From an uncultured Litoreibacter sp. (GTDB lineage: Bacteria > Pseudomonadota > Alphaproteobacteria > Rhodobacterales > Rhodobacteraceae): a DNA stretch of 64,000 nucleotides. The translations under genes and the position numbers were made by a program. The DNA lies in contig CANLVO010000001.1 of assembly GCA_947494645.1 (NCBI GenBank), positions 1,054,001 through 1,118,000 on the forward strand. The letters run 5' to 3'. The notes below the pieces were generated by a model. That model did no database searches, was not told the origin of the DNA, and saw nothing but the letters and a program-made list of their open reading frames with translations. Shown here one piece after another: positions 2,537 through 42,396 of this stretch (positions within the stretch are counted from its first letter, which is position 1; each line of letters opens with the position of its first letter).

Positions 2537-3349
2537 ATGACCCAAAGGTTTGTGGATTTAGGAGTGCTAGACGGTCCCGTGTTGTTGTTTGGTGGCCCGT
2601 ACTCGAATTTGCACGCGACCCGGGCGCTATTGGCGCAGGCACGCGATATCCCACGCGGCAACCGGATATGTACGGGCGACGTTGTCGCCTATTGCGCCCA
2701 TCCCGTCGAAACCACAGCCCTCGTTGCCGATCAGGTGGGGACGATTGTTGCGGGCAATTGCGAGTTGCAACTGACGAGCGGCCAAGAGGATTGCGGCTGC
2801 GGTTTTGAGGAAGGCTCGGCCTGCGATTTGGCATCGAAGAGTTGGTTTCCATATGCGGCAGAGCGCATGAGAGGTTCATTGGATCTGCTAGAGAATCTTC
2901 CGGAGATCGCGGTTTTCCAGCACTCGGGCCGCCGCTATGCGGTGATTCACGGCGGCGTCTCTGACGTGTCTCGGTTCATTTGGTCGGTGGATAGCGATAA
3001 CGTATTCAAAAACGAAATCAGTAGCCTAGAAGGCGAAGTTGGTGAAGTCGACGGTATAGTCTGTGGCCATAGCGGCATCCCGTTCGAGCGCTTTGTTGAC
3101 GGGAAGCAATGGGTCAACGCAGGTGTTGTTGGGATGCCGCCGCATGATGGACGACCCCAGACCAGGTACTGTGTGATGCAGGACGGGCAAGTGATGTTCC
3201 ACGAACTTAGTTATGATCACCAAGCCGCCGCTCAAGCAATGCGCGAGGCAGGGCTTACGCAAGGCTATGAGGTTTCGCTCATCAGTGGCATTTGGCCGTC
3301 TGAGGACATCTTGCCGGACAAAATGAGACGCGAACGCCTATATGCCTAG
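2537..3349 (+). CDS. Metallophosphoesterase family protein
   Basis: A 270-residue protein with calcineurin-like metallophosphoesterase motifs: GGPYSNLHATRAL near the N-terminus in place of GDxHG, TGDVVAYC (GDxxxYG-like), the GNCE tetrad, then IHGG and CGHSGIPF (GHTH-like). These suggest a two-metal phosphatase of the YfcE/DUF2436-like sort; the substrate is unknown. The start is placed at ATG 2537, preceded by AGGGGAGG; an upstream in-frame ATG at 2504 would add 11 unlikely residues. The region between the GNCE and HGG motifs is Cys-rich (EDCGCGFEEGSACDL). It converges on xerD with a 4-bp stop overlap. Confidence 0.75.
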   Translation: MTQRFVDLGVLDGPVLLFGGPYSNLHATRALLAQARDIPRGNRICTGDVVAYCAHPVETTALVADQVGTIVAGNCELQLTSGQEDCGCGFEEGSACDLASKSWFPYAAERMRGSLDLLENLPEIAVFQHSGRRYAVIHGGVSDVSRFIWSVDSDNVFKNEISSLEGEVGEVDGIVCGHSGIPFERFVDGKQWVNAGVVGMPPHDGRPQTRYCVMQDGQVMFHELSYDHQAAAQAMREAGLTQGYEVSLISGIWPSEDILPDKMRRERLYA

Positions 3350-4290
3350 TCCGTATCGGCCAAGGGATGTTTTTGAAGCACGAGTTCCTTGAGACGCTCG
3401 TCAATCACATGGGTATAGATCTCGGTGGTTGAAATGTCGGCGTGGCCAAGCAACGTTTGGATTGCTCGAAGGTCCGCGCCTCCCGCCAGAAGATGGGTCG
3501 CGAACGCGTGGCGCAACGTATGGGGCGTGACCTTGTCGGGAGCGACGCCACCTGCGACGGCCAATTCCTTGATCAGCATGTAAAATCGGTGCCGGGTGAT
3601 GTGGCCAGCTTTGCTGTGTGACGGGAACAGGAACTTTGACGGGGCCGCGCCTTTCTTGCGCGCAAGGTCTTCTTGCGCGTCACGGGTATCGATCCAGAGC
3701 ACAAGTGCATCACGGGCCGCAGGTGAAAGGGGCACCATGCGTTCCTTGTCGCCTTTGCCGCGCACGAGGATCATCCGAGGATCACCTCTTGTGGCGGATA
3801 CCGGCAGGGTGACCAACTCGCTGACGCGCATACCAGTCGCGTAAAGCAACTCCATCATACAGGTGTTACGAATGCGGTCTTCTTGGGACTTGGCGGAAGT
3901 CTGAGCGACGCCAAGCAAGCGGTCCACCTCGTCGATGGACAGGGTCTTGGGAAGGGATTTCTCTTTGCCGGGGCCTTTAATCTGGATCGCCGGATTATCT
4001 GTGCGCCAGCCTTCTTCATAGGCAAAACGATAGAGCTGCTTGAGCGAAGAAAGGCGTCTGGCGCGTGTGGACCGGGCAAGTCCCGCAGCATCGCAGGCGA
4101 TCAAGTAGCCCTCGATATGGTCACGGGATGCGGTTTGGAAGCTCTGGTTCTTTCGTTCAAGCCAATCGGCCGCGTCGATGAGGTCGCGTCCGTAGGCAAG
4201 GCGAGTGTTCTCGGACGCATCCAACTCGGCAGCTTGAGCCTCCAGAAAACTCTCTATCCAGCGGGACGCGTCTGCACTGACGGTGCTCAT
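3346..4290 (-). CDS. xerD: Tyrosine recombinase XerD
   Basis: A 314-residue site-specific tyrosine recombinase. The N-terminal SAM-like domain (1-105) is followed by the catalytic domain. Active-site residues are visible: R155 in GMRVSEL, the lysine in GKGDKE, H257 and R260 in HTLRHAFATH, H283 in LGHADIS and the nucleophile Y292 in EIYTHV. XerD acts with XerC at dif to resolve chromosome dimers. The assignment to XerD rather than XerC rests on overall similarity and on position after the exported protein, with which it shares an ATGA overlap. The stop shares CTAG with the convergent phosphoesterase stop. Confidence 0.9.
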   Translation of the reverse strand: MSTVSADASRWIESFLEAQAAELDASENTRLAYGRDLIDAADWLERKNQSFQTASRDHIEGYLIACDAAGLARSTRARRLSSLKQLYRFAYEEGWRTDNPAIQIKGPGKEKSLPKTLSIDEVDRLLGVAQTSAKSQEDRIRNTCMMELLYATGMRVSELVTLPVSATRGDPRMILVRGKGDKERMVPLSPAARDALVLWIDTRDAQEDLARKKGAAPSKFLFPSHSKAGHITRHRFYMLIKELAVAGGVAPDKVTPHTLRHAFATHLLAGGADLRAIQTLLGHADISTTEIYTHVIDERLKELVLQKHPLADTD

Positions 4291-41299: not shown

Positions 41300-41590
41300 A
41301 TGTACCTGAAACGCCCGGCAGGCCCTCGTGTGGTCACTTTGGAAGATGGAAGCAGCCTGTCCCGATCCGATCTGCCAAGCGTCAACACAAGCCGCTGGGT
41401 TGCGGGTCGGAAAGCAGTGGTGGTCAAAGCCGTACAGTCGGGGCTGATTGACGCAGCTGAGGCTTGCGAAATGTACAATCTGTCGCAAGAAGAGCTAGAG
41501 AGCTGGTGCGCTGCTGTTAGGGATTTTGGCGAAACAGCGTTGAAAACAACTGCGTTGCAACGTTTTCGACAAATTGAGCAGCGTTCTTAA
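41300..41590 (+). CDS. sciP: CtrA inhibitor SciP (DUF1153)
   Basis: A 96-residue DUF1153 protein starting MYLKRPAGPRVVTLEDG, with SRWVAGRKAVVVKAVQSGLI and the helix-turn-helix-like EACEMYNLSQEELESW. In Caulobacter SciP binds CtrA or its target DNA and blocks activation in G1. It lies 101 bp upstream of ctrA on the same strand. The start is ATG 41300, where the conserved region begins; a frame from 41267 adds unlikely residues. Confidence 0.9.
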   Translation: MYLKRPAGPRVVTLEDGSSLSRSDLPSVNTSRWVAGRKAVVVKAVQSGLIDAAEACEMYNLSQEELESWCAAVRDFGETALKTTALQRFRQIEQRS

Positions 41591-41641
41591 TCTTTATTTT
41601 TAAAGACTTAAGAGGACGGTAACTTTAGATTAACCTTTTTG

Positions 41642-41691: not shown

Positions 41692-42396
41692 ATGCGCGTG
41701 CTTTTAGTCGAAGACGATCCAACGACAGCCAAGTCAATTTCGATGATGCTGACTCATGCCAACCTGAATGTGTACACCACAGATCTGGGCGAAGAGGGGA
41801 TCGACCTGGCTAAATTGTACGACTACGATTTGAACCTACCAGACATGACTGGCCATGAGGTGCTTAGGCAGTTGCGCCTAGCGCGCGTCGAGACGCCAAT
41901 TTTGATTTTGACAGGGGCGGATGATACCGAGAACAAGCTCAAGGGCTTCGGATTTGGTGCGGACGACTATCTTACAAAGCCTTTCCACCGCGAAGAGCTT
42001 GTCGCGCGAATTCACGCGATTATCAGACGCTCAAAAGGGCATTCGCAATCGGTCATCAGCACAGGCAAGATCGCCGTGAATCTTGATGCAAAAACAGTCG
42101 AAGTTGATGGACAGGCCGTTCACTTGACCGGAAAAGAGTACCAAATGCTCGAACTGCTGTCCTTGCGCAAAGGCACGACACTCACCAAGGAGATGTTTCT
42201 GAACCATCTATATGGCGGCATGGACGAGCCTGAGCTGAAAATCATCGACGTCTTCATTTGTAAGCTGCGCAAGAAGCTGGCCACTGCCAATGACGGGGAG
42301 AACCATATCGAAACTGTTTGGGGTCGCGGTTATGTGCTGCGCGATCCACAACCGTCCGAGAATACCGATACGCCACGACTGGCGGTCGGAGCCTGA
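41692..42396 (+). CDS. ctrA: Cell-cycle response regulator CtrA, receiver lacking phospho-acceptor Asp51
   Basis: A 234-residue OmpR-type regulator, clearly CtrA by [40 protein letters not shown] and [10 protein letters not shown]. The ATG 41692 follows GGAG. The receiver keeps the acidic pocket (E7, D8, D9) and the conserved Lys of LTKPFH. But where CtrA proteins read YDYD-(I/L)ILLD-LNLPDM, this one reads [10 protein letters not shown]: five residues including the phospho-acceptor Asp51 and its beta-strand are missing, with no frameshift. The DNA-binding domain appears intact. The protein should not accept phosphate from ChpT. Confidence 0.93.

Follow-up and report, generated by a model that had tools for sequence, protein, structure and literature searches.

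A five-residue deletion in the receiver of the only CtrA found in a Litoreibacter assembly that also lacks flagellar core and gene-transfer-agent structural genes

The window analyzed here, a stretch of 64,000 nucleotides from the genome of an uncultured Litoreibacter sp. (contig CANLVO010000001.1, positions 1,054,001 to 1,118,000), contains a ctrA gene that is intact except for the center of its receiver domain, where five residues are missing. This locus raises the question of whether such a protein can still accept phosphate and, if it cannot, why the allele persists in a gene that is otherwise highly conserved. We addressed this question by comparing the gene with its relatives, by examining the geometry of the receiver, and by following the fate of the functions that CtrA controls.

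A 15-bp contraction in an otherwise conserved gene

The genome under study (G000; 3.44 Mb in 8 contigs, 99.42% complete) encodes a CtrA with matches over the Pfam cut-off to both PF00072 (76.7 bits) and PF00486 (74.4 bits), that is, a protein of OmpR-type architecture, which is 97% identical to the CtrA of the nearest congener, G018 (Table 1). The stretch around the deletion reads [19 protein letters not shown], with the core [10 protein letters not shown]. Compared to its best solved relative, the CtrA receiver 4qpj_C (E 1.8e-46), the protein lacks five residues between YDYD and LNLPDM. An earlier note on this DNA had proposed an in-frame loss of 15 bp at this point, and comparison with relatives bears this out, the loss being seen in this genome alone. 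A second ctrA elsewhere in the genome was considered and rejected because no further CtrA was found in the assembly, where the next match is 34% identical.

Table 1. Coordinates of the features discussed. Positions are those of the window unless a genome and contig are given.
Feature	Position	Strand	Basis or remark
Gene with Pfam DUF1153, open frame, directly upstream of ctrA	41300..41590	+	Pfam; start codon putative
CtrA-type box GTAAC-N6-TTAAC, intact, 5' of ctrA	41619..41634	+	sequence
ctrA, 234 aa, receiver 5 residues short	41692..42396	+	only copy in assembly
Receiver domain, Response_reg, residues 3-107	41698..42012	+	Pfam
Acidic pair Asp8-Asp9, retained	41713..41718	+	sequence, alignment
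Codons D-Y-D-L-N-L-P-D-M	41821-41847
Deletion junction between GAT and TTG (Asp46-Leu47); LILLD (15 bp) here in relatives	41827..41832	+	comparison with relatives
Lys96, conserved (Lys101 of full-length relatives), retained	41977..41979	+	sequence, alignment
DNA-binding domain, Trans_reg_C, residues 140-216	42109..42339	+	Pfam
Terminase-gp15 (GTA_TIM) fusion	G000:C1:1506329-1508830 (L140:11330-13831)	-	further loci L144, L145, L192-L200
flgE 3' part joined tail to tail to first ~47 fliC codons	G000:C2:183200-183480 (L135)

The short receiver was sought in four overlapping samples, namely congeners, named relatives, and pattern and protein searches of the family. At E 1e-60, a CtrA match was detected in 18 of the 20 other congeners searched, and all 18 carry the LILLD residues; the two congeners without a match, G012 and G013, are 57% and 82% complete, respectively. 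The usual distance of 7 residues from YDYD to the next PD motif was found in 79 of 80 named relatives (a set that includes L028, the same locus as congener G010), the exception being L079, with 12. A pattern for the exact short form, which is blind to short forms with other residues, matched one of 394 family genomes, the genome under study. When the family was searched with CtrA residues 1-196, matches at E 1e-75 came from 371 of 395 genomes, and among the matches listed, 150 were measured, of which 149 span 201 codons and the short CtrA alone spans 196. Thus, no other short receiver was found among the congeners, named relatives and family genomes examined, and the possibility that this form is common to the clade was rejected. 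Likewise, judging by titles and the openings of abstracts, we found no report of a natural deletion in a CtrA receiver.

The exceptional relative, Cribrihabitans marinus (L079, ctrA at 3001-3729), carries the same 15 bp in tandem duplication, encoding LILLDLILLD, so that the genomes examined include one contraction and one expansion of this site. The earlier note had attributed the deletion to slippage between direct repeats. Short repeats do lie at the edges of the segment, are exact (GATTTG...GATTTG) in the relatives L032 and L063, and are joined in evidence by the reciprocal duplication in Cribrihabitans, but the nearest congener has only an imperfect repeat, GATCTC...GACCTG. Slippage between short GAYYTN repeats flanking the LILL codons is thus the probable, rather than the established, cause of the deletion in the sole ctrA ortholog of this assembly.

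Because the short form comes from a single genome, an error of sequencing or assembly, or a variant confined to the culture that was sequenced, has to be weighed as well. We consider this explanation improbable given that the deletion is in-frame, lies at codon-aligned short repeats away from any homopolymer, is mirrored by an exact reciprocal duplication in Cribrihabitans, and is accompanied in the same genome by two more deletions in CtrA-controlled functions. Furthermore, repeats this short should survive assembly without collapse.

Three separate observations were made in the course of these searches. Next to its normal CtrA, congener G011 encodes a second, CtrA-like protein that is 75% identical and has LILLD intact (G011:C44:115306-115986, L027); the CtrA match at G271:C5:29887-30489 contains one in-frame TAG; and a response-regulator match in the genome under study (G000:C1:1423898-1424572, L007) has one TGA inside the aligned stretch.

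Receiver geometry and phosphorylation

The earlier note held that the phospho-acceptor Asp51 itself had been deleted. The gap can be drawn in two ways, one of which removes LILLD, including Asp51, whereas the other removes DLILL and leaves the aspartate before LNLPDM in place. Because these placements are equivalent, the letters alone do not show loss of Asp51; the loss of five residues and a core strand stands, and which aspartate went depends on how the gap is drawn. What the sequences establish with certainty is the loss of one LILL strand and of the usual spacing.

The spacing was assessed by aligning a profile of full-length CtrA receivers to the receivers of the same genome. Between the column of Asp9 and the phospho-acceptor aspartate there are 37 residues in the short CtrA, compared to 42-44 in all 23 other receivers placed (22 before inclusion was relaxed), a set that excludes two partial matches lacking the Asp9 column, one receiver with alanine at the aspartate column and low-scoring fragments; the genome has 31 other receiver matches, some of which the profile missed. 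Structural modeling is in line with this result. AlphaFold2, run with 34 sequences, placed strand beta-3 at residues 47-51 of the full-length relative L028 and built no such strand in the short CtrA, in which residues 33-51 have pLDDT below 50 and ten-residue means range from 65 to 90 over residues 121-220. Because the control itself scored only modestly (mean pLDDT 66.1, with part of its receiver also below 50, against 62.9 for the short CtrA), we treat the models as supporting evidence only.

Given the spacing, the missing LILLD residues and the unbuilt strand, an aspartate following beta-3 at the normal distance is absent from the short CtrA. Under the mechanism that we propose, beta-3 would have been removed and the aspartate before LNLPDM displaced by five residues, with the DNA-binding half left untouched. 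Phosphotransfer from ChpT to this receiver is most likely abolished, in agreement with the expectation of the earlier note, to the extent that sequence spacing and a model allow, and the shortened domain may also fold poorly.

An opposing interpretation is that Asp46, before LNLPDM, serves as a substitute phospho-acceptor on a shortened alpha2-beta3 connection. The D-L-N-L-P-D-M segment is indeed intact, and Asp8, Asp9 and Lys96, which are invariant in the alignment, are all retained. This arrangement would nevertheless depart from the spacing of every other receiver placed, and beta-3 would then read KLYDY, putting an aspartate and a lysine in the core strand, at a site where AlphaFold2 builds no strand. 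We judged a surrogate Asp46 unlikely from the spacing of the receivers, and, with the other evidence added, it is the least probable of the alternatives that we weighed.

The protein is orthologous to the OmpR-type CtrA of Ruegeria KLH11, Rhodobacter capsulatus, Dinoroseobacter shibae and Phaeobacter inhibens, and, like these, it is accompanied by a CckA-like kinase and ChpT encoded in the genome, a DUF1153 neighbor and a box of the autoregulatory type. It differs from them in lacking beta-3 and a normally placed Asp51, and its genome differs in having lost the core flagellar genes as well as those for GTA structure. The closest functional parallel is the laboratory D51A variant of Rhodobacter capsulatus CtrA, in that, from its sequence, the short CtrA would likewise not be expected to be phosphorylated at residue 51. 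However, D51A alters a single residue and leaves the fold intact, whereas the loss of five residues probably disturbs the fold.

Deletion of flagellar and gene-transfer-agent clusters

Flagellar genes are described as core targets of the CtrA phosphorelay in Rhodobacterales (PMC12363192), and Litoreibacter arenae has been described as a motile species bearing a polar flagellum (PMC3910544). In the genome under study, the flagellin match is confined to a 67-codon frame and covers 44 of the 139 profile positions, whereas flagellin is full-length in 16 of the 20 other congeners. A search across the congeners did not detect flhA in this genome or in G005; flhA is also missing from G009, G010 and G012, whose assemblies are incomplete or highly fragmented. 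At the point where flgE and fliC are joined, the nearest congener has approximately 25.7 kb of additional DNA with most of the flagellar genes, which amounts to one clean deletion in the genome under study. Here, fliC and flhA were identified by Pfam, and the names flgE, motB and most others in the cluster are tentative.

The flgE remnant retains approximately 429 of 440 codons, is cut near its 3' end and contains no stops. In comparison with the nearest congener, pN/pS is 0.068 for this remnant (a value that includes about ten codons by which the tblastn match, 438 of 440 codons, overruns the junction of the DNA alignment) and 0.08 for the fliC remnant; among seven other genes compared between the same two genomes, six fall at 0.03-0.14 and the seventh at 0.27. 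The absence of stops together with the low pN/pS suggests that the flagellar deletion is recent too. The loss in G005 is different, with matches to flgE, flgK, flgL and flgI retained. Chemotaxis provided no sign of decay, CheW being present in just 3 of 21 congeners, the genome under study among them.

The GTA cluster has collapsed as well. It is shorter by approximately 11.4 kb, and, at what is presumably the Walker-B strand of the terminase, residues 1-184 of this protein continue in frame into the C-terminal half of gp15. Among 246 family genomes, 13 matched a probe across this junction over at least 108 of its 110 residues, with fusion frames of at least 827 codons in 11 of the 13; diverged fusions weaker than E 1e-24 would escape this probe. 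The same fusion is present in the congeners G005 and G007. The junction point, between WxDE and xGC, is identical in the ten junctions read out of 15 loci tried, the remaining five being judged from probe coverage. On a tree of 13 congeners, the fusion state needs three changes, which would most simply correspond to three separate deletions; horizontal spread of one fusion allele within the genus is unsupported, given these changes and the lack of a shared tract in sliding windows. The recurrent junction may represent either a hotspot or a selected fusion, and titles and abstract openings revealed no report of a terminase-gp15 fusion.

These deletions alter the expectation, expressed in the earlier note, of a viable strain with altered control of motility or gene transfer. 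With flhA, flagellin beyond approximately 47 codons and most of the flagellar cluster gone, and the GTA cluster collapsed, that expectation is moot in this genome.

A broken switch or a reduced programme

The components surrounding the receiver appear undamaged. The upstream DUF1153 gene is presumably sciP. The box 5' of ctrA is the same in 17 of 18 congeners, the remaining one (L020) having GTAAT; a box of this type has been described at a Rhodobacter capsulatus promoter (PMC6363796). The CckA-like hybrid kinase is a 785-codon open frame, in which the C-terminal 596 codons, the part read, comprise PAS, HisKA, HATPase_c and receiver domains, and the ChpT frame is open. Within ctrA, the strong conservation outside the deletion that had been claimed earlier is evident: relative to the nearest congener, the receiver shows a single amino acid change (I71V) at Ks of about 1.2, and alignment columns 135-222, which include the DNA-binding domain, show none. 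Such conservation would be expected either if the lesion were recent or if the protein were still in use, and the data fit both.

The lack of decay outside the deletion counts against a dying gene, in that it equally fits a working protein. Accordingly, we considered that the short CtrA works as a phosphorylation-independent transcription factor that mimics unphosphorylated CtrA and is retained for this role. The unchanged DNA-binding domain and promoter box and the preserved frame agree with this possibility, as does work on Rhodobacter capsulatus, for which a proposed model has unphosphorylated CtrA initiating GTA expression via gafA and CtrA-P completing maturation, and in which over-expression of D51A is described as causing a two-fold rise in gene transfer (PMC6363796). 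However, the GTA structural genes that would be served are deleted, the loss of beta-3 goes beyond mere non-phosphorylation and may make the protein unstable, and the short form occurs in no other genome examined. On balance, we regard this explanation as unlikely, albeit less so than the other alternatives. Marginally more doubtful is its extended form, in which a naturally occurring CtrA is locked in the unphosphorylated state, continues to bind DNA and drives a smaller, phosphorylation-independent programme without flagellum or GTA, its repeat site being able to contract, as in this genome, and to expand, as in Cribrihabitans.

The distribution of CtrA across the family bears on the same question. 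In accord with the earlier note, ctrA is described as non-essential in Ruegeria KLH11 (PMC3692519). We detected flhA in 20 of 20 family genomes with a CtrA match, a chosen, non-random sample (20 taken from the first 27 matching genomes of other genera in the list), compared to 3 of 20 without a match at E 1e-75, although such negatives may carry a divergent CtrA. Part of the association may reflect genome reduction, given that eight of the 20 negative genomes do not exceed 2.6 Mb. Taking these points into account, CtrA and the flagellum tend to be lost together, and the genome under study looks like an early stage. Loss of these functions alone does not undo ctrA, because G005 keeps CtrA intact although it carries the GTA fusion and has neither flhA nor a full flagellin, and because seven GTA-fused genomes of other genera (G090, G160, G112, G260, G063, G164 and G157) have CtrA of normal length.

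Two further observations concern the same searches. In all, 24 of 395 family genomes lack a CtrA match at the E 1e-75 threshold, and flhA is missing from 17 of the 20 of these that were covered; and FlhA at G029:C3:2540097-2542075 lies in two overlapping frames, possibly through a frameshift.

Taken together, these results translate into an explanation that we consider probable, in which the short gene is an allele that has recently lost phosphorylation, and perhaps all function, in a lineage stripped of the main functions under CtrA control. Under this explanation, deletion of the core flagellar genes and of the GTA structural genes is what would allow the allele to be tolerated. The likeliest course of events is that the phosphorylation switch decayed after, or alongside, loss of the functions that it served, rather than as part of an altered motility programme.

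This genome appears to be a snapshot of a global regulator dying alongside its targets: the switch is broken, while the phosphorelay frames, the promoter and the DNA-binding half are intact, and the flagellar and GTA clusters have been removed through clean deletions. It provides a natural experiment on whether Rhodobacterales need CtrA for anything beyond motility and gene transfer, and on how the protein acts when phosphate is lacking.
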